Source: an uncultured Bacteroidota bacterium (GTDB lineage: Bacteria; Bacteroidota; Bacteroidia; Chitinophagales; Chitinophagaceae). Taken from it: 64,000 nt of DNA. Under the pieces are notes generated by a model. That model did no database searches, was not told where the DNA came from, and saw only the letters and a list, made by a program, of their open reading frames with translations. The stretch's first letter is position 1. Each line of letters opens with the position of its first letter. Positions 12,591 through 33,289 of this stretch are shown here, in pieces. The stretch spans positions 1 to 64,000 of the forward strand of contig CAIVKC010000030.1 of the NCBI GenBank assembly GCA_903906365.1, in the 5' to 3' direction. Position numbers and translations under genes: made by a program.

Positions 12591-12977
12591 CTAAGGAGCC
12601 ATAAAAGGCAGCTGTCCCGGAGGAGGATGAAAATAAACCAGGCTTCCGTGGTAATGGCTGAAGGAGGGAATATAATTCAGGTAACCATAATCGTTGAGAT
12701 CGCGCAAAGCACGGTAATAGGTATTGGAACCAGACACTTTGCAGACGGGCAGGAGTTCGGTGCGGAAAAAACGGAGCGGATGGACAAATCCCTTGTCCGC
12801 CCAGTTTTTCCACAGTGCCATAAAGACACTGATATGCGAGCTGGAGATCCTTGGATCTTCTCCGATACCGGATAAAAAACCATGCAGGACCGCCAGTTCA
12901 GGCAATATGGCGGCCTTTGCGTCCGGGCCGGTTCCGGGAACCGGCAGCCTCCTGGTCTTCTCCTTCCTCTTCTCCAT
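12591..12977 (-). CDS. Winged-helix-like protein of Bacteroidota mobile elements
   Basis: A 128-residue protein whose core, ISSSHISVFMALWKNWADKG, then NTYYRALRDLNDYGYLNYIP, is the pattern of a winged-helix protein often found in Bacteroidota integrative elements: a helical 'ISVYMALF..W' block, a recognition helix around TYYRALRDLxxxGYL and a wing near GSLVYF. The family resembles replication-initiator and phage regulator N-termini. It overlaps the end of the upstream gene by 80 bases in another frame, so the pair is coupled. The C-terminus ends in a proline-rich tail. The role is probably DNA binding in element maintenance, which is an inference. Confidence 0.65.
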   Translation of the reverse strand: MEKRKEKTRRLPVPGTGPDAKAAILPELAVLHGFLSGIGEDPRISSSHISVFMALWKNWADKGFVHPLRFFRTELLPVCKVSGSNTYYRALRDLNDYGYLNYIPSFSHYHGSLVYFHPPPGQLPFMAP

Positions 12978-13716
12978 GATGGTTGTTTTTTTCCTGCATC
13001 TCTGACTGGTCTGCGGTTGGGGGTACCGATGCTGCCGACCCCTCCGTTTTCCTGGAAGCAGTCAGGTTGATGCGCAGCATCTGTTCATTGAATACGTGGA
13101 TGGATTTGTACTGGGGGCTGGCTTCGATGAACAGCTTTTTTTCCCGGCCCTCCAGTCGCATGGTGATTTGGTGCCTGTTGCCGCGTTGCAGGGACCGGAT
13201 CAGGAAGCGGGCGCTTTCTTCCTGCTCCATTTCCACGATGGGGTAATTGGAAAGCGATTGTTCCAGGTCGAATCCGTAATGCTGGTGAAACTGTTTGATC
13301 CGGAAATTTCCTGAATCATCCACTTCCCTGAAATTAAGCTGCAGCCAGGCGCTGTACTTTTCACCCTCCCGGTTTACCAGATCCTTATGCACGGCGCGCC
13401 CCTGCATGAGATTAAAGGCTTCCTTCAGGGTGATATTATTGTCGCGGCCGATCCGGAAGGACTGGGTGAATACTTCGGTTCCTTTTTCATTTTTTAACTG
13501 CAAAAGGTAGCGGTTGAAAAAATACAATTCACTCTGTTCGGATTTGCGGAACTGAAGCAGGACTTCGACAGGAATGTCTCCGAAAGCGGGTTTATGCACC
13601 AGACTGAATTCTTCGGTCTGGGATTCCATTTTTTCCCGCAGTTGATCCTGCAGGGATTCGCCAAAGCCGGTATACTTCAGCTGATTTTTCAGGTACTCAA
13701 AGTTTTGTTCGTTCAT
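12898..13716 (-). CDS. Conserved mobile-element protein, function unknown
   Basis: A 272-residue soluble protein matching a widespread family of Bacteroidota conjugative and transposon regions. Characteristic blocks are MNEQNFEYLKNQLKYTGFGE, VLLQFRKSEQSELYFFNRY, ITLKEAFNLMQGRAVHKDL, AWLQLNFREVDDSGNFRIK, HHYGFDLEQ-type sequence and LIRSLQRGNRHQITM. The C-terminal 60 residues are charged and low in complexity, as usual in the family. Function is not known, but its regular company is the small winged-helix protein encoded next, as here. It marks this stretch as part of a mobile element. No disruption was seen. Confidence 0.75.
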   Translation of the reverse strand: MNEQNFEYLKNQLKYTGFGESLQDQLREKMESQTEEFSLVHKPAFGDIPVEVLLQFRKSEQSELYFFNRYLLQLKNEKGTEVFTQSFRIGRDNNITLKEAFNLMQGRAVHKDLVNREGEKYSAWLQLNFREVDDSGNFRIKQFHQHYGFDLEQSLSNYPIVEMEQEESARFLIRSLQRGNRHQITMRLEGREKKLFIEASPQYKSIHVFNEQMLRINLTASRKTEGSAASVPPTADQSEMQEKNNHHGEEEGEDQEAAGSRNRPGRKGRHIA

Positions 13717-14410: not shown

Positions 14411-15145
14411 TCAGCCACAAGTCCCTGATGAAATGGGAGCGTAGTCAACCACTCCCACTTTAATGTCTTCCCCATCCGCTTGTCCCGAGGCTTTCATATG
14501 GGCAAGCAGGATATAGAGTGCCTGCACTGAACCGACGCCATAGTGTCCATCCATGGTGCCCGGGTTGGGGGGCAGGATGGGATGTTCCGGACGCAGGGCG
14601 TTGATCAGGTCCAGGGCATAATGGACACAGTTGCCATTCCAGAGATTATACCTGGGGGATGAACCCCGGGTCAGGATCCTGGAGGTCACCCGGCCGAATT
14701 CCGAAGCAGAAACCCGCATATCGAGTTCGGCATTGAATTTATGGCCTGAATTATCAACGAGTTTTCCCGGAACGTCATAGCCTGACAGGGCACCGATTCC
14801 AGCGCAGGTAAAACCAAATACCCGGCTGACCGAACCGGTTTTCCCGGATTTCCGCAACATCAAAAAGCAATGCCCCGTTGATGCGCCCGGAATATTGAAC
14901 ACAAAGGCGGGATCATTGTCCACCGGCAGGTCCAGGTACAGGGATACCTGGCAGTCTGCGCTTTCATCGGGAACACGGGTAAAGCAACCCAGCAGACGGG
15001 CCGCATCCAGCGGCGGTTTTGAGGCCGGATTCCGGAGCGCGCTGCTGCCCAGCCCAGCCCCGGAGGGGAAGGCGGGCAGACTGAAAAGCAGCAGCAGGAT
15101 GGAGCATGTTTTCACAGGGGTCAATTTTTTTTGAGTCTGAGCCAT
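14411..15145 (-). CDS. Secreted protein, possible permuted NlpC/P60 (papain-like) hydrolase
   Basis: A 244-residue exported protein from the ATG at 15145 (MAQTQKKLTPVK), with a signal peptide to about residue 30. Two blocks suggest a circularly permuted papain-like fold: a histidine in a strand (STGHCFLMLRK) and, later, a cysteine at the start of a helix (NLWNGNCVHYALDLINAL). In YiiX/LRAT-type enzymes the His comes first and the Cys second, as here. Such proteins hydrolyse amide or ester bonds in cell-wall or lipid substrates. GTMDGHYGVGSVQALYILL follows. No neighbour gives a substrate. The fold call is an inference from motif order. Confidence 0.55.
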   Translation of the reverse strand: MAQTQKKLTPVKTCSILLLLFSLPAFPSGAGLGSSALRNPASKPPLDAARLLGCFTRVPDESADCQVSLYLDLPVDNDPAFVFNIPGASTGHCFLMLRKSGKTGSVSRVFGFTCAGIGALSGYDVPGKLVDNSGHKFNAELDMRVSASEFGRVTSRILTRGSSPRYNLWNGNCVHYALDLINALRPEHPILPPNPGTMDGHYGVGSVQALYILLAHMKASGQADGEDIKVGVVDYAPISSGTCG

Positions 15146-15232
15146 TGTATAATACAGGGATCCCTCCGGCGGGTCATGCATAGGTCAGGAAGTCACTGGC
15201 TATGCTGCCCGATACAAAAAGGCTCCATTCCC

Positions 15233-15670
15233 TCAGCTTTTCCACAAATTGATCTGTTCTTCTTCTGAAAGGGAAATGGAGCAATACCGCATCAATTCGG
15301 CAGCTACGTGACTACCCACCTCCTGACGCAGGGAGCTCCCCATGATGAGGGGGTAATTACGAAGCAAGGACTGAAGCGAACCCAGGAGTTCCATTTTGGC
15401 GGGTATCCCTGCGGAAGCCTGCTGCAAGAGCTGCCTGATCTCTTCCACCAGTTCATGTACCTGGGAAAGCAGCCCGGGAATTAGATGCAGATCGTTAAAG
15501 TCGTCCGGACGGCCGTACTGCTGGCCTGCCTCCGATACAAAGGGCCGACCCGGCCCTGACCGCCCCAGTATATCCCTTCGGTAATACAAGGCCAGAATAC
15601 ACAGGTAATAGAGGCTGGAGGTAGCCAGCAGAAAAAGCAACAATATTTTCCAGGAGATCTGATGTAACAT
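15233..15670 (-). CDS. Membrane-anchored protein, mobile-element type
   Basis: A 145-residue protein from the ATG at 15670 (MLHQISWKILLLF); the frame extends 17 codons further up but then lacks the normal N-terminal order. One transmembrane segment (LLLFLLATSSLYYLCILALYY) is followed by a charged cytoplasmic part with a helix LLSQVHELVEEIRQLLQQA and the end SISLSEEEQINLWKS. This layout resembles small single-span proteins encoded beside conjugation genes in Bacteroidota. No conjugation gene is adjacent here, so the assignment is tentative and the function unknown. Confidence 0.55.
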   Translation of the reverse strand: MLHQISWKILLLFLLATSSLYYLCILALYYRRDILGRSGPGRPFVSEAGQQYGRPDDFNDLHLIPGLLSQVHELVEEIRQLLQQASAGIPAKMELLGSLQSLLRNYPLIMGSSLRQEVGSHVAAELMRYCSISLSEEEQINLWKS

Positions 15671-15848
15671 GACGCCTTTTTGTGAGAACAAATATGTGCA
15701 TCCCAATGCCCGGTTTTTCAATAGTTCCTCCTGAATCAGGAATAATAATATTCAGCAGGCGCCTGCCCCTGTCTTAATCGGGAGTCCCCTGTGAAACCCG
15801 CAGCCCCGGGACCTTGATGGGTACGCCAATGATTTGTACTTTTAATTC

Positions 15849-19856: not shown

Positions 19857-20705
19857 TCATCGTTCATCGAGTTCATCCATACGCCGTATTATTTTTTCCC
19901 GGAGCTGGTCCAGCAGCTGCGTGCGGTTTTTTTTGCGCAGTCTGATTTCATTAAATACGTGGTAATAATTGCCCAGTTTGACCTGGAAGCTTTGTTCAAA
20001 GAAGCCGGCGATCCTCCTGAGGTCGGCATGCCCGTTGTTATATACGCCTCCGGCCTGCAGGGCATAGATCAGCTCAACTAGGTCCGCTTTGGATGCTGTC
20101 CAGCGCAAGGAGTTTCCGGTGGAAACCAAACCCGGACCCTCGGCATGGTCCCGGATCAGGGTAAGTTCCTTTTTTAAGTAGACTTGCAGATCATCATGCG
20201 CCAGGATCTTGGCCACCAGGTAATCATGGCTGCTGGTAAATACGGAGGCCACCGGCTGATAACGCGGGTTCTGAAGTGCGTCCGGTGATTCTTTGCCATG
20301 CAAGAAATAGACATGGTCCAGGCTTGTGGCGCCACTTCGGTAATAAAGATAAAACTCACGATGCCGGACAAAGTAATCCGTGAGCCGGGCCAATTCCCGC
20401 TGGATGTATTTTTCCTGGATATCCCGGTTACCAGGCGGACGGTTGATGGAAATACGGTATACATTGGTAAAATAAATGAAGGCGGAGTAAAACAGGGGCT
20501 TGATGTGTTTGAAAAAGTGGATTTCCTCCTGGGGCCTTTCGAATGGGGTCTTGATCACCAGGCTCTCCAGCGCTATCATGGACTTCCTTACAATTTCAAT
20601 ACATTTTTCCGTACCGGGCAGGTCGGTTTCTTGCAGCGACAGATCCCGGGTCATATCGTCATATAGCCTTTCCATGCAGGAAGGCATCGGCGGAATGGTA
20701 TGCAT
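19857..20705 (-). CDS. rteC: RteC-family regulator
   Basis: A 282-residue protein of the RteC family, named after the CTnDOT regulator that activates the excision operon of that conjugative transposon. Clear family blocks are IHFFKHIKPLFYSAFIYF, REFYLYYRSGATSLDHVYF, SSHDYLVAKILAHDDLQVYL, LRWTASKADLVELIYALQ, NNGHADLRRIAGFFEQSF and YYHVFNEIRLRKKNRTQLLD. The frame is open to 20849, inside the sigma gene, but the family N-terminus aligns from about MERLYDDMTRDL, so the ATG at 20705 or 20675 is preferred. It lies directly downstream of the ECF sigma gene on the same strand. The partner two-component genes rteA and rteB are not present. Confidence 0.88.
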   Translation of the reverse strand: MHTIPPMPSCMERLYDDMTRDLSLQETDLPGTEKCIEIVRKSMIALESLVIKTPFERPQEEIHFFKHIKPLFYSAFIYFTNVYRISINRPPGNRDIQEKYIQRELARLTDYFVRHREFYLYYRSGATSLDHVYFLHGKESPDALQNPRYQPVASVFTSSHDYLVAKILAHDDLQVYLKKELTLIRDHAEGPGLVSTGNSLRWTASKADLVELIYALQAGGVYNNGHADLRRIAGFFEQSFQVKLGNYYHVFNEIRLRKKNRTQLLDQLREKIIRRMDELDER

Positions 20706-20770
20706 GCGGCTCAGGTATAAGGTTATCTCAGATTGGTACTGCGTTTCAATATAACAAGCAAAATCAACCG

Positions 20771-20806
20771 AAAAACTATAAAATTTTAATTTTTTTTCAC
20801 CCCAAA
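20771..20806 (-). promoter_or_regulatory. Candidate promoter of rteC
   Basis: On the minus strand a TTTG box (20803-20806) is followed after 24 bases by TAGTTTTT (20771-20778), one mismatch from the Bacteroidota TAnnTTTG element. Spacing is at the long end of the usual range. It fits an rteC start at 20705 or 20675, and would allow transcription separate from the sigma gene. Confidence 0.35.
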
Positions 20807-20812
20807 CTACCT

Positions 20813-21409
20813 TTAGACGCAGGAGCTGGCGCAAAGTAGCGAGAGGCAAAAGCAGCTGGGCAGCAGCGCTGGGAAAAATGAGTTGCTCTTAAAGACGAGA
20901 CGTAGCCGCTGTTTTGCCCGGGAGAGCTGATTGGCGACGGTTTTTTTGCTGATCCCTAAACGGGCCGCAATCTGCGCGTTTCCCAGTCCGCCCAGATAGG
21001 AAAGGCGGAAAATTTCGCGGCAGCCGGCCGGCAGCTTTTCCATCTCGGCAAGTATGCTGGCCAACAGGTAGGGCGTTGGGTCTTCCCGGCCGGGGCTTTC
21101 ATCCGGTGTCTCCAGGAACTGGCGCCAGATCTCCTTTTTGTGACGGTCCATGGTCTGGTTTCGCCGGAGGTAGTCCATGGAACCGTTTCTAACCAGGGTA
21201 AAAAGAAAGCGATCGGTCTGCTCCGGGCGGTCCAGCGGAATCCCCGCTTCCAACAGTTTTAAAAAAGCAGTTTGCACAATGTCCTCTGCTTCCTGGCGCT
21301 GGGAGCAGGTGCGAAGGGCATGGACAATCAGCCGGGCCGACAATCGGTCGAACAGCCTCCTGAACAGCAATTCCCATCCTGGGGAGCCGCTTTTCTTGTC
21401 GATGACCAT
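20813..21409 (-). CDS. ECF sigma factor (RpoE-like, FecI-type)
   Basis: A 198-residue ECF sigma factor. Region 2 is at about 20-85 (ARLIVHALRTCSQRQEAEDI, VQTAFLKLLEA, DRFLFTLVRNGSMDYLRR), which recognises the -10 element. Region 4 is at about 130-185 (LPAGCREIFRLSYLGGLGNA, QIAARLGISKKTVANQLSRA), which reads the -35 element. A short hydrophobic cysteine-containing tail follows. With the divergently encoded FecR and the STN-bearing SusC it makes a complete cell-surface signalling set: ligand at SusC, signal across the periplasm to FecR, release of sigma. The likely target is the fecR-susCD promoter region. The rteC gene follows 107 bases downstream. Confidence 0.92.
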   Translation of the reverse strand: MVIDKKSGSPGWELLFRRLFDRLSARLIVHALRTCSQRQEAEDIVQTAFLKLLEAGIPLDRPEQTDRFLFTLVRNGSMDYLRRNQTMDRHKKEIWRQFLETPDESPGREDPTPYLLASILAEMEKLPAGCREIFRLSYLGGLGNAQIAARLGISKKTVANQLSRAKQRLRLVFKSNSFFPALLPSCFCLSLLCASSCV

Positions 21410-21562: not shown

Positions 21563-21955
21563 TCAGCGGTAACGCGGATAGAGGCTTGCCAGCAGCACGC
21601 AGATCACGCCTGCAAGACCTAAAGCGAGTTGAAGGGGTTGAAAGCGGCGTATCAGCAGCGTTTCAACAACGATCCAGCCGGTTAGCAGCAGGCCCTGCAC
21701 CAGGACGATCCGGCTGGCATAGGGAATGCCTTTGATCAGCAGAACGCAGGCAAACAGACCGTGCAGTCCGATGACTATAAAGAGGATCATACCCGGCAGC
21801 AGGAAATCCGCAAAGGGAGAATGCCTGAGTAGTTCGGTGGAGATGTGAAGGGTATGGCCGTCGGGATAGGTAAAGAGGTTCCAACCCCCGTATAGCGCTC
21901 CCAGTCCCGAGAGGATAAGCAACAGGGACAGGGCTGTTTTAAGAAGTTGTCTCAT
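21563..21955 (-). CDS. Small integral membrane protein
   Basis: A 130-residue protein with four hydrophobic segments: LLKTALSLLLILSGLGALYGG, the segment around FLLPGMILFIVIGLHGLFAC, IVLVQGLLLTGWIVVETLLI and LALGLAGVICVLLASLY. A polar loop with YPDGHTLHISTELLRHSPF lies between the first and second segments, where a periplasmic position is likely. No family function is known, although small four-helix proteins of this sort are common in Bacteroidota. It lies between the sigma gene and FecR, on the sigma strand, but is not an evident part of the signalling set. Confidence 0.7.
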   Translation of the reverse strand: MRQLLKTALSLLLILSGLGALYGGWNLFTYPDGHTLHISTELLRHSPFADFLLPGMILFIVIGLHGLFACVLLIKGIPYASRIVLVQGLLLTGWIVVETLLIRRFQPLQLALGLAGVICVLLASLYPRYR

Positions 21956-22566
21956 GGATTTTTTTTATAGGACTGTATGCCAGTTAGGCTGCTGCCAACT
22001 GTAGACAAAATTTTCTTCCTGCCAGCGATACATCGTCTTTGGCTGCCTTAATGCAGACCCAAACCCGCCGGTATCCTCTTATTTAACTTTGGCTGCGCCA
22101 TCATCTGTCGTGGTTGCCAGCTGGATGACCGGTTTTGCCTGCGAGCAGAGAGGGTATCCTTTCGCAAGCGCAGCTACCATATCCGGGAGATCAACATGGC
22201 CAAATGTCAGCCATACCCCCACTGCCCGGTGGTAAAGGATCGGGAGGGCTGGGCAGGTAAAAAGCCAGACACCTAGCATCCGGAGGCTTCCCTCAACCCA
22301 TAAGCCCTTGGATAACCGGCAGCAAAAAGAACCTCACTCCCGGCAGGACCCGTGAATTATTATAAAAATAGCGGTCCCTTTCTTCAATGAGTATGATCAC
22401 CGGCAGCCCTTAACAGGACAGCCATCAGCCGGTGCCATTGCCTCCTGTTTTGCCCAAGTACAGAAGGCTAGTATTAATTTTTCTTTATTTTCCGGATGTT
22501 CCTTTGGTAGGAAATCAAACATGATTTGTCTGTTAGTAATCATCTGTGAATTTTCCAACTGCTCAT
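21956..22566. other. Divergent intergenic region before fecR
   Basis: About 610 bases with no supported gene. It must hold promoters for the membrane protein gene (left) and for the fecR-susCD set (right). No confident sigma-target boxes could be assigned by eye. Confidence 0.45.
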
Positions 22567-23805
22567 ATGGGTGCTGCTGAAAGGATTTCCGATTTAATTT
22601 TTAAATACCTGCGGGATGAACTATTGCCGGAGGAGGCCGAAGAACTGGACCAATGGATATACAGTGCTCCGGAAAATGAAGCCATCTTCCTTCGGCTGAC
22701 CGATGAGGATGAACTGCGTTATCAGTTGCAGTTGCTCTATGAGTCCCGGGAACAGACATGGAAAAAACTTCAGGAGAAGGTCCCTGAACTGGCGCCTCCA
22801 AAAAGGGGCATGTTGAAACACATCAGTAATTGGTTTGCCGAAAAGCCGGCACGCTGGCGGGTACCGGCTGCGGCAGCGATGGTACTGCTGGCAGGATCCT
22901 TCCTGGTGTTTCATCTGACCTTCCGGAATAATGTGCCTCTTTCTTCCAAACTGTCTGCCCCCCAAACCAAGGATATCAGCCCGGGCGGCAACCATGCTGT
23001 ATTGCTGCTGGCGGGCGGTAACCGAATCATCCTGGGAAACCGACTTGCCGGACTGGTTGCCCGGGAAGGGGGGACAGAGATCATCGGTGCCGACAGCGGT
23101 TCAATCCGGTACCGGCTGATGGGACAGACCCCCGGACATGAAGACAGCCTGCCCCGGGGTTTAAATACCCTGGCTACACCCAGGGGCGGACAGTTCAGGC
23201 TGGTTCTTCCAGACGGCACCCGGGTCTGGCTAAATGCGGCCTCTTCCCTGTCCTACCCGGCTCAGTTTTTGGGACCTGAACGCCGGGTGGTCCTGAAAGG
23301 GGAGGCTTATTTTGAGGTGGCAGCCAACCCGTCGCTTCCCTTCAGGGTCCAGATCAGCGGCCGTTCGGAATTGGAAGTAAAGGGGACACACTTCAATGTC
23401 ATGGCTTACCCTGATGAACCGGCCCTGGTCACCACATTGCTGGAAGGACTGGTGGCCGTCAGGCCGGCCGGTTCAACAAGATCGCCTGTGCTCATACATC
23501 CCAATGAACAAGCCATTGTCCGCGACAGCCTGCATGGGGTAGAAGTCAGAAAAGACCCGGAGGCCGCTGAAGCGGTGGCCTGGAAAAATGGGATTACCTC
23601 CTTTTCAGATGCGGATATCAGAACCATCATGCGTAAAGTGGCCCGCTGGTATGATGTGGAAGTTTCTTATTCCGGTGAGATGCCTTCCCGTCGTTTTGAA
23701 GGGGGTATTCCGCGCAACGCTAATCTGTCTGAGGTGCTGAAGGTATTATCTCTGTATAAAATACATTATTCGCTTTCCGGAAACCACATCCTTATTTCAC
23801 CCTGA
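22567..23805 (+). CDS. FecR family anti-sigma factor
   Basis: A 412-residue inner-membrane signal transducer. The ATG at 22567 is preferred over the upstream GTG at 22546. Residues 1-80 form the cytoplasmic sigma-binding part (ISDLIFKYLRDELLPEEAEE). One transmembrane helix lies near 95-115 (VPAAAAMVLLAGSFLVFHL). The periplasmic FecR domain (NTLATPRGGQFRLVLPDGTR, VWLNAASSLSYPAQF, RVVLKGEAYFEVA, FNVMAYPDEPALVTTLLEG) is followed by the DUF4974 C-terminal domain (IRTIMRKVARWYDVEVSY, LSLYKIHYSLSGNHILI). It reads the STN domain of the next gene's SusC and controls the divergently encoded sigma factor. Confidence 0.93.
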   Translation: MGAAERISDLIFKYLRDELLPEEAEELDQWIYSAPENEAIFLRLTDEDELRYQLQLLYESREQTWKKLQEKVPELAPPKRGMLKHISNWFAEKPARWRVPAAAAMVLLAGSFLVFHLTFRNNVPLSSKLSAPQTKDISPGGNHAVLLLAGGNRIILGNRLAGLVAREGGTEIIGADSGSIRYRLMGQTPGHEDSLPRGLNTLATPRGGQFRLVLPDGTRVWLNAASSLSYPAQFLGPERRVVLKGEAYFEVAANPSLPFRVQISGRSELEVKGTHFNVMAYPDEPALVTTLLEGLVAVRPAGSTRSPVLIHPNEQAIVRDSLHGVEVRKDPEAAEAVAWKNGITSFSDADIRTIMRKVARWYDVEVSYSGEMPSRRFEGGIPRNANLSEVLKVLSLYKIHYSLSGNHILISP

Positions 23806-23834: not shown

Positions 23835-23866
23835 AAAAAAACCGGGAGTGTTGGAACCACTCCCGG
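23835..23866 (-). terminator. Minus-strand terminator in the susC leader
   Basis: CCGGGAGTG (23842-23850) and CACTCCCGG (23858-23866) form a perfect 9-base-pair stem with a 7-base loop. On the plus strand no T run follows. On the minus strand the stem is followed by eight T residues, the form of an intrinsic terminator. No minus-strand protein gene precedes it, so it could end an antisense RNA to the susC leader. Confidence 0.65.
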
Positions 23867-23937
23867 CGAATGGCGGGTTAATCCCAATAAAAAATCTGTC
23901 TAGGAATCTTCATTGTTTAACCCACCAAAACAAAGAT

Positions 23938-26900
23938 ATGCAATCCTGTGCTATCTGCAGCACCCGGCGAGGACCGGGGAGACTGCCTTCAAAAACTATT
24001 GTGCTTATGAACTGGATGGCCTTATTCCTGTTTGCATTCCTGATGCATGCCCATGCGGGAAGCTTTTCCCAGGGTATAACGCTCTCAGAAAAAAACGCCC
24101 CCCTTTCCAAACTGTTCCGTCAAATCGAAAAGCAGACCGGATGCACCATCTGGTATGAAAAGGAAGAAATCGAAAAGACGGGAAACGTATCCGTTCGACT
24201 TCAACATGCCAGCCTGGAGCAGGCCCTGGAGGCATGCCTTCAGGGAAAACCACTGGAATATGCCATTATAGGACGTATGGTGGCCGTAAAATCCAGGTCC
24301 GCCGGAAACAGTCAGCTGCCCGATCAGGCGGTGGTCCGGGGCAAAGTGCTCAATGAAAAGGGAGAGCCCCTGGCCGGCGCCACCATTACGGTCAAAGGGA
24401 CCTTGCGGACCGTGGCCACGGATGAAACAGGTTCGTTCTTAATAGGCGGAGTGTCCCCAAGTGCCCTTTTGGCGGTCAGTCACGTTGGTTATGAAACGCA
24501 GGAAATCAGGGCTGGCAGCAAAAATACACTGATCATCCGGATGCGGCCAGTGGCAAACAAACTCGATGAGGTACAAATCATCGGTTATGGAACCACGACC
24601 CGCAGGTACAACACGGGTTCAGTATCAAAGATCAATTCAAAGGAAATAGAAGAACAACCGGTCACCAACGTACTTTCTGCCCTGTCTGGCAGGGCAGCCG
24701 GGGTTTTTGTACAGACCACCAACGGGCTGCCAGGCGGCGGAGTCACCATTCAGGTCAGGGGCAAGGGTTCCATAGCTGCAGGAACCGATCCGTTGTATGT
24801 TATAGATGGGGTCCCTTTTGCCTCTTCGGTAGTGGCTTCCGACAATATAATGGCTTTCAGTGCCATCAATGGCGCTGTCAGCCCCTTTAACAGCCTCAAC
24901 CCGGATGATATTGAAAGCATCAGCATTCTAAAAGATGCAGACGCCACTGCCATCTACGGATCCCGGGGTTCCGGCGGAGTCATACTCATTACTACCAAAA
25001 AGGGAAAGGCTGGCAAAGCCAGGGTGACCCTGAAAGCCTATGGTGGCATTGAAAAGACAGCAAACCTGCCTTCCCTACTCCATGGCCCCGCCTATCTCCA
25101 GATCCGGCGGGAGGCATTCCGGCATGATGGGCTGGTCCCATCCCCGGACCCCAACGATCCTGCCTATGCGCCGGATCTCCTGGTATGGGATACCACCCGC
25201 AATACCAACTGGGCCAGCTATATGCTCGGCAGGACCGCCCAGGTCCTCAATCTGCAGGGAAATATTTCCGGGGGGGATGAACATACCAGCTTTACCGCCG
25301 GTGGCAATTTCCGGACTCAGACCACGGTGCTTCCGGGCAGTACCCGCTACGAGCGGGCAGGGATGCATATGAACATTCAGCACAGTTCTGCCGACAACCG
25401 GTTTTCAGTACTTTTTTCAACTACCTACAACGAGGATAACAACCAGCTATCCAATCCCACCGCAGCACTGGTGAATGATCTGCTTCTGCCTCCGGATTTC
25501 CCCCTCTATGATGCCGCAGGCAACCTCAACTGGTACCTGGGTTCCAACCCGCTGGCAGATATCAAGGCGAGGACCCGTACCCAGACGGACAATATCATTA
25601 CCAACATGTCCCTCCGCTATGAAATCTTGCCCAACCTGCATCTAAAAGTTGACGCCGGATATAACAGGGTCAGTATCGGCCAGGTCATGACCTACCCATC
25701 GGCCTCGCTTTACCCCGGAAGCACGAATTATTCCAATTTCGGAAATAATGCGATCCGGTCGCTGATTGTGGAACCACAGGCCGATTACCATTTCCGGATT
25801 AAAAAATCCCATGTTTCCCTGCTGGCCGGAGGAACCTGGCAGGAAAGCCAGCACAGTAATGAGTTCATACAGGCCAGCAATTTCAGCAATGAAAACCTGC
25901 TGCAGGATCTGGGTTCGGCTCAGTCCTATTATGCCAACAATTCCAAACTCGATTACAAATACGTCTCAGTATTTTCCAGGCTGACCTATGACTACGACAA
26001 TAAATATATCCTCAATGCCTCTGTGCGTCGGGACGGCTCCTCCCGCTTTGGGCCGGGCAATGAGTTTGGGAATTTTGGCGCCCTGGGTGCAGCCTGGTTA
26101 TTTACAAAGGAGCGCTGGATGAGGGAAAAGACATCCTTTGTCAGTTATGGAAAACTGAGGGCCAGTTACGGGATTACGGGAAATGACCAGATTCCCGACT
26201 ACCAGTTCCTCTCCGCCTATGGATCGGCCAATATATATCAGGATACGGTGGGGCTGTCTCCCCTGCGGGCCGCTAACCCCCAGTTTCGCTGGGAAACGGA
26301 TCAAAAAATGGAAGTCGCGCTGGAGCTGGGTTTTTTCAGTGACCGGATCCTGCTGACCGTGGAGAGATACCAGAACCGCAGCGGAAACCAGCTGGTGACC
26401 TATTCTTTGCCCGTATTCACCGGCTTTTCGGGCTACCAGGTCAATCTTCCCGCCGTTGTGAATAATACCGGATGGGAATTGGAGCTCAATACCAAAAACA
26501 TCAGAAAGGGCGTACTGACCTGGAGCACCAGCTTCAATATCACCATTCCTAAAAACAGGTTGAAAAGTTTTCCGGGTATTTCCACTTCAAGCTATGCGCA
26601 GACCCTGGTCGTGGGTCAGGACATCACCCGGATTTATGGTTACAGGCTGGATCATATCGACTCTTCTGGCAGTCCTGTTTTTTATGAACAGTCCGGCAAT
26701 TCGGGGCCTTATTATTATGCTACCATCGGCAGGCAAACACCGGACTTTTACGGGGGTATTGGAAACTCCCTGAGTTTCAGGGGATGGGGACTGGAAATTT
26801 TCGGACAGTTTGCCCGCCAGTTGCAACAGGGAGGACTTAGCAATACACCCGGCTTGTTAATTAATAACTATAGCCTTGTACTGGACAGATGGCAGAAACC

Positions 26901-27198
26901 GGGCGACCATACCCTTATCCCCGCGGCGACTACCAATTACAATTTCTATTACGGGTATTCCTCTGCGAATTATTTTGAGTCCGCCTATTTCAGGCTAAAA
27001 AATATTTCCATCTCTTACTCGTTGCCCTCGGCCTGGCTGAAAAAGAACCGGGTTTCCAAATGCAAGTTCTATGCCATGGCAGAGAACCTGCTTACCCTCT
27101 GGAATCGAAAAAATCCTTTTTATGACCCGGAGACCGGCGCCTCATCAAACATACCACCTATGAAATCCTTTGTCGCGGGCATCCAGGTAAGCCTTTAA
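23938..27198 (+). CDS. SusC/RagA-type TonB-dependent outer-membrane protein with STN domain
   Basis: A 1086-residue protein counted from the ATG at 23938. A long leader holds the signal segment (MNWMALFLFAFLMHAHAGSF). Next come an STN signalling domain (LSKLFRQIEKQTGCTIWY), a carboxypeptidase-regulatory-like domain (GKVLNEKGEPLAGATITVKG), the plug (GSVSKINSKEIEEQPVTNVL, SALSGRAAGVFVQTTNG, TDPLYVIDGVP, ILKDADATAIYGSRGSGGVI) and the barrel to the C-terminus. It imports a substrate bound by the SusD partner, powered by TonB. The STN domain links it to FecR and the ECF sigma. The substrate is not deducible: no glycoside hydrolase is next to it. Confidence 0.95.
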   Translation: MQSCAICSTRRGPGRLPSKTIVLMNWMALFLFAFLMHAHAGSFSQGITLSEKNAPLSKLFRQIEKQTGCTIWYEKEEIEKTGNVSVRLQHASLEQALEACLQGKPLEYAIIGRMVAVKSRSAGNSQLPDQAVVRGKVLNEKGEPLAGATITVKGTLRTVATDETGSFLIGGVSPSALLAVSHVGYETQEIRAGSKNTLIIRMRPVANKLDEVQIIGYGTTTRRYNTGSVSKINSKEIEEQPVTNVLSALSGRAAGVFVQTTNGLPGGGVTIQVRGKGSIAAGTDPLYVIDGVPFASSVVASDNIMAFSAINGAVSPFNSLNPDDIESISILKDADATAIYGSRGSGGVILITTKKGKAGKARVTLKAYGGIEKTANLPSLLHGPAYLQIRREAFRHDGLVPSPDPNDPAYAPDLLVWDTTRNTNWASYMLGRTAQVLNLQGNISGGDEHTSFTAGGNFRTQTTVLPGSTRYERAGMHMNIQHSSADNRFSVLFSTTYNEDNNQLSNPTAALVNDLLLPPDFPLYDAAGNLNWYLGSNPLADIKARTRTQTDNIITNMSLRYEILPNLHLKVDAGYNRVSIGQVMTYPSASLYPGSTNYSNFGNNAIRSLIVEPQADYHFRIKKSHVSLLAGGTWQESQHSNEFIQASNFSNENLLQDLGSAQSYYANNSKLDYKYVSVFSRLTYDYDNKYILNASVRRDGSSRFGPGNEFGNFGALGAAWLFTKERWMREKTSFVSYGKLRASYGITGNDQIPDYQFLSAYGSANIYQDTVGLSPLRAANPQFRWETDQKMEVALELGFFSDRILLTVERYQNRSGNQLVTYSLPVFTGFSGYQVNLPAVVNNTGWELELNTKNIRKGVLTWSTSFNITIPKNRLKSFPGISTSSYAQTLVVGQDITRIYGYRLDHIDSSGSPVFYEQSGNSGPYYYATIGRQTPDFYGGIGNSLSFRGWGLEIFGQFARQLQQGGLSNTPGLLINNYSLVLDRWQKPGDHTLIPAATTNYNFYYGYSSANYFESAYFRLKNISISYSLPSAWLKKNRVSKCKFYAMAENLLTLWNRKNPFYDPETGASSNIPPMKSFVAGIQVSL

Positions 27199-27208
27199 AC
27201 TTTATATT

Positions 27209-28564
27209 ATGAAAACAACAAACATCAAATACCTTTTGCCATTTCTGGTCCTGGGATTACTTGCAGGCTCTTGCAAAAAGATGATCACTGTCGGGACACC
27301 GGAAAACCAGTTAACCACGGATAAGGTTTTCTCAGACAGTACGGCAGCTCTGGCCGCATTGCTGAATACCTATGCTCTTTTCAATATATCGATTGAAAGC
27401 ACGATTACTCCTTATTGGGGACTATATGCAGATGAATTAGATTATTCCAACGGTGACCAGGGAACCCTGGAGTTTAGCCGGAGCAATCTGTCTGCCGACA
27501 ACGCGACCAACCTGAATAACTGGAAAAATTTGTATACAGCCATCTACCAGTGCAATGATATCATCAGCCAATTGCAAAATGCCTTTCAAATTACTGCTGC
27601 CACCCGAATGGAATTCATCGGAGAGGCCAAATTCCTGCGGGCCTACGCCTATTTTTACCTGGTAAACAGCTATGGGCAGATACCCTTGGTGATGGGCACC
27701 GATGTTAAAGCCAATTCCATGCTTCCCAACACGGATGCTGACTTGGTTTATGCGCAGATCAAAGCAGACCTCCTTGATGCCTCCAATGCGTTGGCCCCGG
27801 ACTACCGGGGGGATGGAAAAGTAAGGGCAAACCGGTGGGCGGCCCTTGCCCTGCTGGCCCGGGTGTATTTATACCAGCAGGACTGGGTGGATGCGGAATC
27901 ATCCGCTTCCAATGTCATCAACAGCGGATTATACCTTCCCCTGGAAAACCCGTCCCAGGTCTTTTTAGCAAACAGCACCGAAACCATCTTGCAATGCTGG
28001 ACCCAGTATGGTTATACCAACAGTGGTACCATATTGATTCCCGACGGCAGCCTGCCCAATTTTACCCTGTCAAACCACTTTATGGGACAGCTGGAAAACG
28101 GGGATGCCAGGGTTGGCGCCTGGATGGATTCTGTAGTTCAGAACGGGATGGTGTATTATTATCCATTCAAATACCATAACCGGGCCCCCAACACGCTCAG
28201 CCCTGAATACCTGACGATGCTTCGCGTAACCGAGCAGATCCTTATACGTGCCGAAGCCAGGGCCAGGCAGAATAACCTTACCGGAGCAAACGAGGACCTG
28301 AATATGGTTCGCAGCAGGGCCGCCTTACCCAATATGTCTGCCGCGGATATGCCATCCGTGCTTAAAGCCATTATGCATGAAAGGCAGGTTGAATTATTTG
28401 CCGAATGGGGCCACCGGTTTTTTGACCTGAAAAGAACAGGTAGCCTAAACCAGGTCATTGGCTCCTATAAGCCTGACTGGAGAACGGACACTTCGTCCCT
28501 TTTTCCCATCCCCCGACAAGAGTTGGTACTGGATCCTAACCTGAAGCAAAACCCCGGATACTGA
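27209..28564 (+). CDS. SusD/RagB-type surface lipoprotein
   Basis: A 451-residue lipoprotein (cysteine 22 in LLAGSC) that forms the lid over the SusC barrel. Tetratricopeptide-rich SusD features are visible: NLNNWKNLYTAIYQCNDII, FIGEAKFLRAYAYFYLVNSY, QIPLVMGTDV, RWAALALLARVYLYQQDW, EQILIRAEARARQNN and the C-terminal IMHERQVELFAEWGHRFFDL with KRTG. It starts 10 bases after the susC stop, so one operon. It determines substrate capture, but the ligand pocket cannot be read from sequence. Confidence 0.95.
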   Translation: MKTTNIKYLLPFLVLGLLAGSCKKMITVGTPENQLTTDKVFSDSTAALAALLNTYALFNISIESTITPYWGLYADELDYSNGDQGTLEFSRSNLSADNATNLNNWKNLYTAIYQCNDIISQLQNAFQITAATRMEFIGEAKFLRAYAYFYLVNSYGQIPLVMGTDVKANSMLPNTDADLVYAQIKADLLDASNALAPDYRGDGKVRANRWAALALLARVYLYQQDWVDAESSASNVINSGLYLPLENPSQVFLANSTETILQCWTQYGYTNSGTILIPDGSLPNFTLSNHFMGQLENGDARVGAWMDSVVQNGMVYYYPFKYHNRAPNTLSPEYLTMLRVTEQILIRAEARARQNNLTGANEDLNMVRSRAALPNMSAADMPSVLKAIMHERQVELFAEWGHRFFDLKRTGSLNQVIGSYKPDWRTDTSSLFPIPRQELVLDPNLKQNPGY

Positions 28565-28592: not shown

Positions 28593-29963
28593 ATGCTACG
28601 AATCATGATCCTGACCCTGTTTTGTGTCGTTATATCGATATGCTCAACTGGTCAGTCAAAAACAGCTTTGGTAAAAGAGTTAAAGATCGGAGACACCCTG
28701 CCTGATATTGTAATTCCCCATTTTCTCAGCGGCCCGGACAGGGGCGCTACCACAGGGGAACTCTACCGCAGGGGGCTGCTGCTGATAGACTTCTGGACAG
28801 TATATTGCACGGTATGCATTGAGGCCATGCCCGAGCTGGATTCACTGGCCGGTTTATTCAGGAAACGCTTTTCGGTATTGTCCATAAATGCCGCAGACAG
28901 CGCAACCGTCTCAGCATTCCTGGTCAAAAGAAAGGACTTGCCTATCAGTCACCTGAATATAGCTGCCAACGGCACCCTTTTCAAACGATACTTCCCGCAT
29001 ATTTTTGTCCCTCATCTGGTGTGGATAGACAGTTTCGGTGTGGTAAAGTACATTACCTCTGAATGGGAATTAACCCTACCTAATCTAAAAGCATTTCTCG
29101 CGGGAAAATCAATGGCACTGACTTTAAAACGGGATGCCCTTCACTTTAATCAGAACAATTCTTTTCATGTGGGAGATAGTGATTACCTATACCGTTCTGT
29201 CATTACACGAACGGCAGACACCCTCACTTCCGGGCTCCTTTATATAACTTACCGGGGTTCCAGGATGTTTGCCCAAAACCGGCGAATCACGGATTTATTC
29301 TGGATTGCATACACCAGGCAGTTGAATGATGTGCCCAACTGGAATTTGATCGAATTGCATACAAAAGATTCGGTTAAGTTTTATTTTCCCAGAGATAATT
29401 TTCCGCTTTTCAACCGGTCCAAGTACCATATTGGAGAAAGCCCCGGGAAGGAACGGTATCTGTGGGAAAAAGATAATCTCTACAATTATGATATCGTACT
29501 GCCCGCGGATGTGGATATGGAAACCTTTAGTAAATATATTTATCAAGACCTGGAAAGGGTATTTCATATTCAGGCAACTACCCGGAAAAAGCCCTTGTTG
29601 TGCAATGTGTTGGAACGAATCCCCTGTTCCGGCTGTAAAACACCCCTTCCCTCCAGGGACTCCGGCGCCATTTTTATTCAACAGGGAAACAGCATTCAGC
29701 TTCGGGGATTTCGGATCGTTGATTTTCTATCCTTAAAACAGCAGGAATTCCCAGGGCCTCCTTTTGTTAATAAGACCGGCCTAACCGGTTATTATGATTT
29801 AGACCTGGAGACCCAATGCACTTCTTATATAACCATGGATTGCATTTTGGATGCCCTCTTAAAACAATATGGCATCCGCTGTACCCGAAAGATCATGCCC
29901 TACCCCATACTGGTGCTATGGGACCACAGCCGTCCTCCTGCGGCAACGGGCAAAGTGAAATAA
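28593..29963 (+). CDS. TlpA-like thioredoxin with DUF3738-like C-terminal domain (first copy)
   Basis: A 456-residue exported protein with a signal peptide (to about 20). Residues 30-170 form a TlpA-like thioredoxin fold with an intact CxxC at 72-75 (FWTVYCTVC) and a cis-proline region FVPHLVWID. The C-terminal 280 residues end in FVNKTGLTGYYDLDLE and PYPILVLWDH, which match the DKTGLxGxYDfxL and xxxxLVIDH signature of the DUF3738/TIGR03435 family. A second CxxC lies at 345-348 (PCSGC). Probably a periplasmic thiol-disulfide protein coupled to the SusCD system. It begins 28 bases after susD and has a paralogue next to it. Confidence 0.82.
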   Translation: MLRIMILTLFCVVISICSTGQSKTALVKELKIGDTLPDIVIPHFLSGPDRGATTGELYRRGLLLIDFWTVYCTVCIEAMPELDSLAGLFRKRFSVLSINAADSATVSAFLVKRKDLPISHLNIAANGTLFKRYFPHIFVPHLVWIDSFGVVKYITSEWELTLPNLKAFLAGKSMALTLKRDALHFNQNNSFHVGDSDYLYRSVITRTADTLTSGLLYITYRGSRMFAQNRRITDLFWIAYTRQLNDVPNWNLIELHTKDSVKFYFPRDNFPLFNRSKYHIGESPGKERYLWEKDNLYNYDIVLPADVDMETFSKYIYQDLERVFHIQATTRKKPLLCNVLERIPCSGCKTPLPSRDSGAIFIQQGNSIQLRGFRIVDFLSLKQQEFPGPPFVNKTGLTGYYDLDLETQCTSYITMDCILDALLKQYGIRCTRKIMPYPILVLWDHSRPPAATGKVK

Positions 29964-29994: not shown

Positions 29995-31347
29995 ATGAAC
30001 CAACGAAAATTACTATTCACCATTTTCTTCCTTTGTGCAGCAAAGCTCGGCTTCAGTCAGCCTTCGATTGCGCCTGTCCGCGAGTTAAAGATTGGGGATA
30101 CCCTGCCTGATTTTGTGGTGTCCCGCCTTATCAGCGGTCCTGACAAGGGGGCTACCACGGGAGCACTCTACCGGAGGGGACTGCTGCTGATAGATATCTG
30201 GGCCACCTATTGCGGGGGATGTATAGATGAGATGCCCAGGCTGGATTCCCTCGCGGAAAAATTTGCAGGCCGGGTTTCGGTCCTGTCAGTTACGCCGGAA
30301 GACAGCAGCAAGGTGACCGCTTTTTTTAAAAAGCGCACTGACCTGGGAATTTCCCATTTGAATATTGTCACCAGCGATACGGTCCTGCAGCAGTACTTTA
30401 AGTGTAAATTAATACCCCACCTGGTCTGGATAGATCAGCTGGGCGTGATCCGTTTCATCACCAGTGAGGCGGAACTCGATGAGGACAATGTGGCAGATTT
30501 CATAAACCATAAGCCGCTTCAGATGGTCCTTAAACACGATGTCCTGCATTTCGAATTCCTGAAAAGGTTTCATGTCGATGACAGCGCATACAAATACCGG
30601 TCGATCATTTCAGGGTTTGCGGATTCGCTCAGTACAACTGATCTGACTAACTCTGGTCTCGGGAAAAGATTTTCAGCGCAAAACATGACGATCATGAGCC
30701 TGTACTGGATCGCATATACCAATCAGCTAAATTCGATTGTTAACTGGAGCCGGGTTGAATTACATACCCGTGATTCCATGAAGTTTATATGGCCCACCGA
30801 AAACCGGGGCGCTTTTATGCGTTCGAGGTATCACCATCCGGGCGGAAGATATGGCTGGGAGTTCTATAACTGGAAAAAGGATAACCTGTACTGCTTTGAT
30901 TTTGAACTGCCAAAGTTTACTGATCTGGCGACCTTCAGCAAATATTTGAATCAGGATTTGGAGAGGGTCTTTCATGTCCACCTTTCCACCCGGAAAAAGA
31001 AAATTCCCTGTCAGGTACTGGAAAAAACGGATTGTTCGGGATGCAAGGTCCCCAAACTTTCCAAGGACAGCCTGTCCTGGTATGAAACCAAAGGCAGCAG
31101 GATCCTGCTCCATAATATGCGAATCCTTGATTTTCTTTTACTGAAACAGGAATCTTTTCCTGGGGATCCCTTTATCAATAAGACCGGCCTGAACGGATAT
31201 TATGATATGGAGCTGGAAATAAAGGACACGACCCATTTTGACATGAGTACCATCATAGAGGCTTTGGGACAATACGGCATCCGGTGCACCCGGAAGACCA
31301 AGCCCTATCCCATACTGGTGCTGTGGGACCACAATACGGGTAACTGA
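29995..31347 (+). CDS. TlpA-like thioredoxin with DUF3738-like C-terminal domain (second copy)
   Basis: A 450-residue paralogue of the preceding protein, alike over the full length. The signal peptide ends near FSQ. The thioredoxin active site is CGGC at 73-76 (ATYCGGC) instead of CTVC, so the redox potentials of the two may differ. The second cysteine pair is kept at 344-347 (DCSGC). The C-terminal signature FINKTGLNGYYDMELE and PYPILVLWDHN is present. The gene starts 31 bases after the first copy and closes the operon at a strong stem-loop. Tandem duplication followed by active-site divergence suggests distinct partners, for example oxidant and reductant roles; this last point is inference. 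Confidence 0.82.
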   Translation: MNQRKLLFTIFFLCAAKLGFSQPSIAPVRELKIGDTLPDFVVSRLISGPDKGATTGALYRRGLLLIDIWATYCGGCIDEMPRLDSLAEKFAGRVSVLSVTPEDSSKVTAFFKKRTDLGISHLNIVTSDTVLQQYFKCKLIPHLVWIDQLGVIRFITSEAELDEDNVADFINHKPLQMVLKHDVLHFEFLKRFHVDDSAYKYRSIISGFADSLSTTDLTNSGLGKRFSAQNMTIMSLYWIAYTNQLNSIVNWSRVELHTRDSMKFIWPTENRGAFMRSRYHHPGGRYGWEFYNWKKDNLYCFDFELPKFTDLATFSKYLNQDLERVFHVHLSTRKKKIPCQVLEKTDCSGCKVPKLSKDSLSWYETKGSRILLHNMRILDFLLLKQESFPGDPFINKTGLNGYYDMELEIKDTTHFDMSTIIEALGQYGIRCTRKTKPYPILVLWDHNTGN

Positions 31348-31398: not shown

Positions 31399-31659
31399 TC
31401 AGGGTTTGAGAATTCTTGCAGTGGGAGCTCCCATTTGACCGGGAACAAGATTACCGTTGGCGCAGTAGAGAGTGCCTCCGTGACAACCATAATATTCTTC
31501 TGCCTGGGCGACCGTACCCTGGAAAGGGTTCTTTCCATTTTCTGACCAGTTGTAGAGGGGGTCGTTCAGGACAGGATGCGCTTTGGCATGGAAGGCGAAA
31601 CTGCCTGCAATCCCGATGGTCAATGCGATTGCCATCAGGCTTCTTTTTACTGTTTTCAT
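31399..31659 (-). CDS. Small secreted protein, DUF6520-like
   Basis: An 86-residue protein with a signal peptide (MKTVKRSLMAIALTIGIAGS) and a short mature part of about 58 residues holding exactly two cysteines in YGCHGGTLYCANGN. Small exported Bacteroidota proteins with a C-terminal cysteine pair of this spacing belong to DUF6520, a family of unknown function that often accompanies MauE-like genes, as here. The pair may form one disulfide bond, probably made by the MauE-like protein upstream or the TlpA-like proteins converging on it. The gene ends at the terminator shared with the plus-strand operon. Confidence 0.75.
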   Translation of the reverse strand: MKTVKRSLMAIALTIGIAGSFAFHAKAHPVLNDPLYNWSENGKNPFQGTVAQAEEYYGCHGGTLYCANGNLVPGQMGAPTARILKP

Positions 31660-31719: not shown

Positions 31720-32184
31720 CTATTTAGCGCGCGAAATGAATGCGGGGTCTGTTGTTCGCTGTTTGCCCTTTCTATCCGGGTGTTGAGTACACAGACAAAA
31801 CACTGAAATTGTCAGGAAGAAGGCATTGAAAAGCAGGTGGTTTTTCCAGGAAAGCCCTGAGATGATTCCACCGCAGGTGCAGGGCAGATCAAACCCGGAA
31901 AGCAGCATCGCCGAAATATAGATTTCAAACAGGGATAGCAGGATGGCTGACAGGTACAAACCAGCCCGGCGGGTAGGGCCGATCAAAAGCAGGATAACCA
32001 GGACAATTTCCAAAACCGGCAATATCCAGCCCAACACCGGTGCCGCTGTTTTCATGACAGAAACGGGGGAGAGACTCATCTGGAAGACAAATTTTTCCTT
32101 CTCCAATAGTTTACTCACACCCGCATAGGAAAACAACAGTACCAGCAGGGAAACCAGGGTCTCATCAACCAGGAGTTTTTTCAT
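31720..32184 (-). CDS. MauE/DoxX-like membrane protein
   Basis: A 154-residue inner-membrane protein with four transmembrane segments, matching MauE: VSLLVLLFSYAGVSKLLEKE, FVFQMSLSPV, LGWILPVLEIVLVILLLIGP and LYLSAILLSLFEIYISAML, then the conserved cysteine motif LPCTCGG. In methylamine utilization MauE is needed for disulfide formation in a cysteine-rich subunit. In Bacteroidota MauE-like proteins often sit beside DUF6520 genes. It lies 60 bases upstream of the small secreted protein and is probably cotranscribed with it. A role in oxidising that protein's cysteine pair is inferred. Confidence 0.82.
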   Translation of the reverse strand: MKKLLVDETLVSLLVLLFSYAGVSKLLEKEKFVFQMSLSPVSVMKTAAPVLGWILPVLEIVLVILLLIGPTRRAGLYLSAILLSLFEIYISAMLLSGFDLPCTCGGIISGLSWKNHLLFNAFFLTISVFCLCTQHPDRKGKQRTTDPAFISRAK

Positions 32185-32269: not shown

Positions 32270-33289
32270 TCAGATCGGATTTTCATCGGATTGCGATGGG
32301 CTGTTATCTTTGGAAGGATTACGGAGCTTGTCGGGACTCAGACCAAACTGCTTTTTAAAGGCGCGCTGGAAATTGCCGGTATGCTCATACCCGATTTCAT
32401 CAGCTATTTCATCATAGGATTTATGGGTACTCAGCATGAGCTGCCTGGCCCTGTTCAGGGCATGGAAGTGTACGAAGCGTCCTAAAGACATACCTTCTGA
32501 GCGGCTGAAATGTTTTTTCAGCACGGAGACACTGACCAGAAATTGCCTGGCCAGTTTTGCGAGGGTCTGTCTTTTGATATGAGGTTCGGTCAATATGAAT
32601 TCCCTTACCTGGCGGTGGAGATCAGCGTGATAATCCTGGCCAGCCAGCTTTAGTACATGATCCCGGTACGCATCCCCATAGGCGCTGAACAGCTCCAGGA
32701 TGCATTTCTGCAGTTCAAGCCGCAGGCTGCCTCCTGTCCGGGTGCAGGACTTTATGTTTTCAAGGATCGCAGCCACCGAATAATTTAGGCTCGCTGCATA
32801 AAATATGGCAGGCCTTTGATCTTTGTTTTGCCACCTGTTGGCAAATTCCCGAAAATCCGGATCGCCCTCAGAGAGTTCCTCGGGCAGCCCTCCGTCCAAC
32901 TCAATATGCAGGGATTCGGAATAACCCGGTGTGCCTTCCATCCGGTGTTTCCCGGCCGGGATGTAGAGGAGCCCGTACCTGTTTTTTCCAAGTGGGATAC
33001 TGGCCCTGTCCTCTGCTAAAATCCGGAATCCACCCTGTAAGGTAAACTGCAGCACCAACATGGGCTCATCGGTATGGAGCCAGAAATCGGCAGTACCGGA
33101 TAATTGGATCATCCAGCGGCCCATGGCTGTATTTTTAAAGCGGTAGGTCTGGGTAATCAGATAACCCTGATTGAGTGGTGTATAATCGGCCGGCATCCAC
33201 GATGAAATCAGGGATTGCAGCCCGGTGGGTACAGGATTTCGCCTGTTAGGAGGGGATGCCAGATGGGAGGTTGCAGGGGATACATTCAT
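32270..33289 (-). CDS. AraC family transcriptional regulator
   Basis: A 339-residue regulator. The C-terminal hundred residues form the twin helix-turn-helix of AraC/XylS proteins: TLAKLARQFLVSVSVLKKHF, SLGRFVHFHALNRARQLM, SYDEIADEIGYEHTGNFQRA and FKKQFGLSPDKLR. The N-terminal 220 residues form an uncharacterised sensing domain rich in strands, with the cupin-like LVLQFTLQGGFRIL and YIPAGKHRME. It lies directly upstream of the MauE-like gene on the same strand, so these genes may be regulated by it or cotranscribed. The effector is unknown. Confidence 0.92.
   Translation of the reverse strand: MNVSPATSHLASPPNRRNPVPTGLQSLISSWMPADYTPLNQGYLITQTYRFKNTAMGRWMIQLSGTADFWLHTDEPMLVLQFTLQGGFRILAEDRASIPLGKNRYGLLYIPAGKHRMEGTPGYSESLHIELDGGLPEELSEGDPDFREFANRWQNKDQRPAIFYAASLNYSVAAILENIKSCTRTGGSLRLELQKCILELFSAYGDAYRDHVLKLAGQDYHADLHRQVREFILTEPHIKRQTLAKLARQFLVSVSVLKKHFSRSEGMSLGRFVHFHALNRARQLMLSTHKSYDEIADEIGYEHTGNFQRAFKKQFGLSPDKLRNPSKDNSPSQSDENPI

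Follow-up and report, generated by a model that had tools for sequence, protein, structure and literature searches.

Adjacent ECF sigma factor and rteC genes in a Chitinophagaceae genome probably mark a seam between a cargo cassette and a relic CTnDOT-type backbone

The window, i.e. the whole 64,000-nucleotide stretch of Chitinophagaceae DNA analysed here, probably carries the transfer-deficient remnant of a CTnDOT-type ICE, or at most an island that can be mobilized, in which the adjacency of an ECF sigma factor gene and rteC is a seam between a cargo cassette and the element backbone. This reading draws on directly observed features, namely the gene content, the synteny with relatives, the recurrence of the cassette and the fact that neither TraE nor TraG was found. 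The rteC gene would lie at the place where the tra operon begins in relatives, a recurrent cargo cassette would have lodged 5' of it and been turned round, and the cassette's own sigma gene, flipped relative to FecR, would thereby abut rteC. SusC and FecR would switch the sigma factor, which would drive the susCD genes, while rteC would be expressed independently or to no use. We infer that the sigma factor is the partner of FecR and that rteC is not its target.

Both genes at the junction are clear family matches on the minus strand, which bears out the initial annotation of an RteC protein beside an ECF sigma factor. The rteC gene (19857 to 20705, 282 aa from its likely ATG) matches PF09357 with 245 bits (8.5e-73) over the full profile (1-219 of 219) and is the sole match to this family in the genome. 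The 198-aa sigma factor (20813 to 21409) exceeds the cut-offs of Sigma70_r2 and Sigma70_r4_2, and reaches 112 bits against the Bacteroidetes sigma model TIGR02985, under the curated cut-off of 126.4. The rteC ORF stays open back to a TTG at 20849, within the sigma gene, and it is the use of this start that produces a 37-bp overlap of the two ORFs; a chance ORF overlap was ruled out as the origin of the pair, given the clear family matches. Within the genus, the alignments of the two best RteC relatives begin at residues 54-55 of the longer ORF, and those of some weaker ones at residue 24. Thus, the ATG at 20705 is the likely, albeit not certain, start of rteC, which would place the genes 107 bp apart. 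The gap (20706 to 20812) has 34% GC compared with 52%, a value equally low in 98 of the 6390 window stretches of that length. No terminator-like site was detected in it by a pattern scan of the minus strand, so read-through from the sigma gene into rteC stays possible. We also scanned upstream of rteC for TTTG/TANNTTTG, which we take to be the promoter consensus, and noted a candidate with TTTG at 20835 and TAGTTTGG at 20809. Such candidates are no commoner than in shuffled sequences (5/37 vs 4.8), and the scan was therefore uninformative about an rteC promoter of its own.

The regulatory genes of CTnDOT and CTnERL comprise tetQ-rteA-rteB and rteC. The window shares with these elements rteC, MobA-, MobB- and MobC-type mobilization proteins and another regulator gene near rteC, but it differs in that an ECF sigma gene precedes rteC and in that the contig holds neither a response regulator nor a recombinase. 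None of the 58 response regulators of the genome lies on the 85.7-kb contig, in agreement with the earlier claim that an rteB-type regulator is absent, and none of its three tyrosine recombinases is found on this contig, which starts at window base 1. Among the 80 surveyed rteC genes of at least 245 aa, 39 are followed by Tra genes on the same strand within 8 kb, typically in the order rteC-ORF162-TraE (DUF4134)-TraF (DUF4133)-TraG (TIGR03783), and in tra-bearing relatives the tra operon starts with rteC. In the window, ORF162 (15233 to 15721, minus strand), which stands between rteC and TraE in those relatives, is no longer next to rteC, the ORFs in between including a peptidase S58 gene and an NHL-like gene. 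ORF256 (14411 to 15181, minus strand) has a relative inside the tra operon of the G140 element, and no tra genes were found in the window after ORF162 and ORF256. ORF128 (12591-12977) and ORF272 (12898-13716), on the minus strand between 12591 and 13716, have relatives beside rteC in a few loci.

Unlike the tra-bearing relatives, in which the tra operon directly follows rteC, the genome of the window gave no match to TraE, in a search that was positive in 36 of 45 genomes, and no match to TraG, in a search that gave no positive genome. As neither gene was found, the element resembles a relic, mobilizable at most. The initial annotation had proposed that uptake of an extracellular ligand could be wired to mobility of the element; since TraE and TraG were not found and none of the tyrosine recombinases lies on the contig, there is no sign of a complete element whose mobility could be so wired. 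Against the relic reading, tra genes could lie in unassembled sequence, as the assembly has 69 contigs and the first base of this one is window base 1.

The seam reading is further favoured by the backbone genes that are kept in the window, i.e. those of the MobA, MobB and MobC types, ArdC, rteC and ORF162. The MobB-type relaxase (655-1845) and the MobA-type protein (1839-2231) lie on the minus strand between 655 and 2231; the relaxase matches PF03432 at 1.1e-18, over the Pfam cut-off, and NF041325 with 146 bits vs a cut-off of 400, and the MobA-type protein shows a NikA-like match of 27 bits. On the plus strand follow an ArdC-type antirestriction protein (39465 to 40382; PF08401, PF18818), a primase-like protein with a DnaG-type zinc finger (41877 to 42767; PF01807) and a MobC coupling protein of the VirD4 type (42777 to 44765; YWFCY, and NF041326 with 1086 bits, cut-off 900). 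The primase-like and MobC genes are 10 bp apart, and the MobA/MobB pair lies about 40 kb off in the opposite orientation. All four genes are contiguous in locus L056, and the element in the window is therefore rearranged. CTnDOT-type islands of Mucilaginibacter (PMC6316836) offer a likeness, as they belong to non-gut Bacteroidetes and combine an RteC-like gene with a CTnDOT-type conjugative module, but their cargo is metal resistance, and the words SusC and sigma are absent from the main text of that source.

Upstream of the sigma gene lies a 130-aa ORF (21563 to 21955, minus strand), a membrane protein by eye, with no Pfam or NCBIfam match and no relative among the surveyed loci. Beyond it, a FecR anti-sigma regulator (22546 to 23805; PF04773, PF16344), one of six FecR_C genes in the genome, is encoded on the plus strand, divergent from the sigma gene and 1.1 kb from it. 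It is followed by a SusC-type TonB-dependent receptor (23848 to 27198, with a probable start at 23938, the start region being conserved in an alignment) and by SusD (27209 to 28564), so that FecR-SusC-SusD all point away from sigma and rteC. The four best-scoring loci for the window sigma, L156-L159, each carry a sigma gene directly before FecR, and their FecRs are among the best for the window FecR, whose top relative is found in G141. Judging from these relatives, the divergent sigma and FecR are probably partners; since L156-L159 were fetched by their sigma, the overlap of nearest relatives supports the partnership and does not prove it. The genes for the claimed pairing of the sigma factor with FecR and an STN-type SusC are hence present, and the partnership is probable, but the STN match of SusC (24.3 bits) falls below the cut-off of 28.4. 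The FecI-FecR-SusCD trans-envelope signalling loci of Bacteroidetes likewise consist of an ECF sigma, FecR, a SusC with a weak STN match and SusD, whereas in the window the sigma gene is inverted, at some distance from fecR, and TlpA, a two-Cys protein and MauE are added.

The fecR-susC gap of the kin of the window sigma-FecR pair contains a conserved hairpin and a conserved block. A profile of this susC-upstream block recovered the window's own copy at 1e-30, the window being one of the five sequences in the profile, and gave no match upstream of rteC. Alignments A1-A3 of the analysis served as scanning vehicles only. The hairpin (23842 to 23866, strand not assigned) is common to the window and the fecR-susC gaps of L188, L190, L067 and L090. 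On the minus strand, antisense to susC, the window copy reads as an intrinsic terminator, with the hairpin followed by seven T. It could terminate a DonS-like antisense RNA, of a family that has been described for susC genes in Bacteroides (PMC7366714); no Rfam family matched the window at the gathering threshold.

The genes around FecR belong to a set that recurs 5' of tra-linked rteC, sigma-FecR-(TlpA)-SusC-SusD-TlpA-small protein-MauE-AraC, which several elements carry in full or almost in full. No gene of sigma-FecR-SusC-SusD-TlpA-small two-Cys protein-MauE-AraC is lacking from the window, where SusD is followed by two tandem TlpA/thioredoxin-like proteins on the plus strand (28593-29963 and 29995-31347), both with weak matches under the cut-off, the first to Redoxin among other models and the second to ResA/TlpA models. 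On the minus strand come a small protein of 86 aa that begins like a signal peptide and contains two Cys (C-x6-C; 31399 to 31659), a MauE-like membrane protein (31720 to 32184; PF07291 at 5.2e-27) and an AraC-family regulator (32270 to 33289; PF12833 at 2.4e-18). Within 9 kb of tra-linked rteC, SusC, SusD or TlpA occurs on the 5' side in 17/33 loci and on the 3' side in 1/33, and MauE in 11/33 and 0/33, respectively; for rteC without linked tra genes, the 5' counts are 5/32 for SusC/SusD/TlpA and 3/32 for MauE. Moreover, of 100 short MauE genes, 32 have TraE within 40 kb, vs at most 3.5 expected. This count took 100 short-frame MauE genes among the matches listed, leaving out frames of at least 321 aa and short ones under about 88 bits, and TraE fragments were joined by hand into 71 places. 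The SusC, SusD, TlpA and MauE of the window score best against the cassette of G138, which itself stands beside an rteC; the nearest relatives of the window AraC and RteC are found in G140 and G077, respectively, and neither in G138.

Small proteins beside MauE were seen in the window (31399-31659) and in L058, L059, L099, L100, L112, L147, L150, L151, L180 and L185. They share a signal-peptide-like start, and mostly have two Cys 6-8 residues apart, a few having four; the L059 relative matches DUF6520 with 22.1 bits, under the cut-off. The combination of TlpA, MauE and a two-Cys protein recalls MauD/MauE disulfide chemistry. From TlpA, MauE and the small two-Cys protein, we surmise that the locus may serve disulfide handling or a peptide system instead of the use of glycans. 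In the literature, which was covered in part, nothing was found on a sigma-FecR-SusCD-TlpA-two-Cys small protein-MauE-AraC cassette, and the term DUF6520 did not occur.

How often a sigma gene accompanies rteC was surveyed in 98 stretches of up to 20 kb (L056-L154 without L074) around many of the rteC places found in 117 family genomes (37 with a match) and 33 genus genomes (26 with a match), with gene names taken from purpose-built HMMs, i.e. iterated searches from single proteins. The neighbour count left out short RteC-like proteins, and the near-identical elements L099/L100, L147/L151 and L061/L080 were each counted twice in it. A sigma gene lies within 3 kb of rteC on the 5' side in 11/74 loci and on the 3' side in 0/73. 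The 5' count exceeds the 3.2% expected (binomial p 2e-5, kinship ignored), the background density, as a lower bound, being about 1 per 100 kb (at least 2558 sigma-like PF08281 genes in 253 Mb). Nine of the 11 sigma genes on the 5' side are divergent from rteC, and same-strand adjacency occurs in 2/74 loci, only in the window and in G140, whose sigmas are not sisters. A single conserved sigma-rteC pair that spread with the element was thereby ruled out. A class-wide sample of 247 genomes yielded 28 rteC loci from 20 genomes other than that of the window, all outside the family, and none of the 28 has a sigma gene in the 1.3-1.6 kb seen 5' of rteC. The adjacency is thus not unique to this genome, but it is rare. 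A related-locus search returned one locus, on the same contig as L057, and the partially covered literature held nothing on an ECF sigma-rteC link.

It could be argued that the arrangement reflects pure chance, with unrelated insertions and neither the cassette nor the regulators tied to rteC. The rarity of same-strand adjacency, the lack of sisterhood between its two sigmas and a promoter scan that did no better than shuffles would fit this explanation, which we nevertheless regard as highly improbable, as sigma genes are confined to the 5' side of rteC and MauE is enriched near TraE.

Other RteC contexts were encountered in the survey. Four loci from three genomes (L062, L064, L070 and L071) show a second RteC context, in which the gene for an RteC of 276-292 aa has no tra genes and is transcribed divergently from an orphan sigma-FecR pair. 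DUF6266 and DUF5675 were confirmed as neighbours in L064 only, and the neighbours in L062, L070 and L071 look similar by eye. Kinship of the window sigma with the sigmas divergent from rteC in non-tra loci was weak (84/90) and was not used. In addition, short RteC-like proteins of about 185-213 aa, matching roughly the first half of the profile, are found in L090, L091, L136 and others, and in these three loci a gene that looks LytTR-like by eye follows the short RteC-like gene, together with an ECF sigma.

In 16/35 cases, a regulator gene stands directly 5' of tra-linked rteC, these 16 comprising 8 cyclic-nucleotide-binding (Crp/Fnr-like), 4 response-regulator, 2 AraC and 2 ECF sigma genes. 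Of the 38 neighbours, 35 were used, after removal of an rteC paralogue and of two near-copies, one of L099 and one of L061. Random ORFs 4-9 kb further 5' in the same loci (32 of 33 taken) served as a control and included at least 4 regulators among 32 (at least 3 at 1e-6), the families seen being the best 25 of 38 and 25 of 26 in the two sets. Fisher's test, computed with 4 and ignoring kinship, gave p 0.004, and regulators therefore seem over-represented immediately 5' of tra-linked rteC. All eight Crp/Fnr-like neighbours are on the rteC strand, 31-248 bp away, and seven of them come from one genus. A Crp/Fnr-like gene directly 5' of rteC on the same strand is seen in L063, L066, L068, L069, L073, L076, L081, L083 and L153. 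Beside rteC without linked tra genes (37 of 38 neighbours taken), sigmas (5/37) are the only regulator group with more than one member among the families listed (25 of 54). Outside the family, most immediate neighbours of rteC are not regulator-like by eye, and three AraC matches lie 5' of rteC.

Since regulators are common 5' of tra-linked rteC, the window sigma occupies a place at which one might look for a regulator of rteC, and the idea of sigma control therefore stays alive. In CTnDOT, rteC is activated by RteB, and its product governs the genes for excision and transfer (PMC1976400). By analogy, the sigma factor could have taken the role of RteAB, so that rteC would be made by read-through or from a sigma-dependent promoter and a signal through SusC and FecR would raise RteC. 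The excess of 5' regulators and the lack of a visible terminator in the gap are in line with such a regulator swap, as is the G140 element, where sigma-rteC-ORF162-TraE stand on one strand and rteC is preceded by an additional sigma whose sister is the cassette sigma of the same element, an arrangement that looks more like selection than accident. We nonetheless consider the swap unlikely for the window, as same-strand adjacency is so rare within the family and absent from the loci outside it, the susC-upstream block does not recur before rteC, TraE and TraG gave no match in the genome, a single genus accounts for seven of the eight Crp/Fnr-like cases, and around rteC without tra genes no regulator group other than the sigmas is found more than once among the families listed. 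The wiring of sigma to rteC proposed at the outset thus gains from the contig without a response regulator, the terminator-free gap and the regulator-rich 5' neighbourhood, but loses on adjacency, sisterhood, the missing block and the missing tra genes; sigma control of rteC is unproven but possible. The seam reading, which we prefer, has to face the missing terminator between sigma and rteC, the excess of 5' regulators, the extra sigma of G140 and the AraC and RteC whose nearest relatives lie outside G138, all of which count against it.

A bolder variant, which we regard as distinctly improbable, holds that CTnDOT-type elements of this family have an exchangeable regulator place 5' of rteC, and that in some lineages a SusCD-FecR-sigma system took it. 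This system would respond to a secreted peptide with a disulfide closure, a product of the same cassette with its TlpA and MauE, and the peptide signal (e.g. donor density or element presence) would set RteC and hence conjugation, the window being a decayed copy and G140 a tra-bearing one.

Taken as a whole, the set sigma-FecR-SusCD-TlpA-two-Cys small protein-MauE-AraC represents a cargo cassette that often travels with CTnDOT-type elements. Control of rteC by a sigma factor is better testable in tra-bearing elements of the G140 type than in the window, and the tra-bearing elements suited to examining control of rteC by regulators other than RteAB are G140 (sigma-rteC-tra) as well as G137, G145, G035 and G120 (Crp/Fnr-like-rteC-tra). 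If regulators other than RteAB control rteC elsewhere in Bacteroidetes, conjugation may answer signals other than tetracycline.
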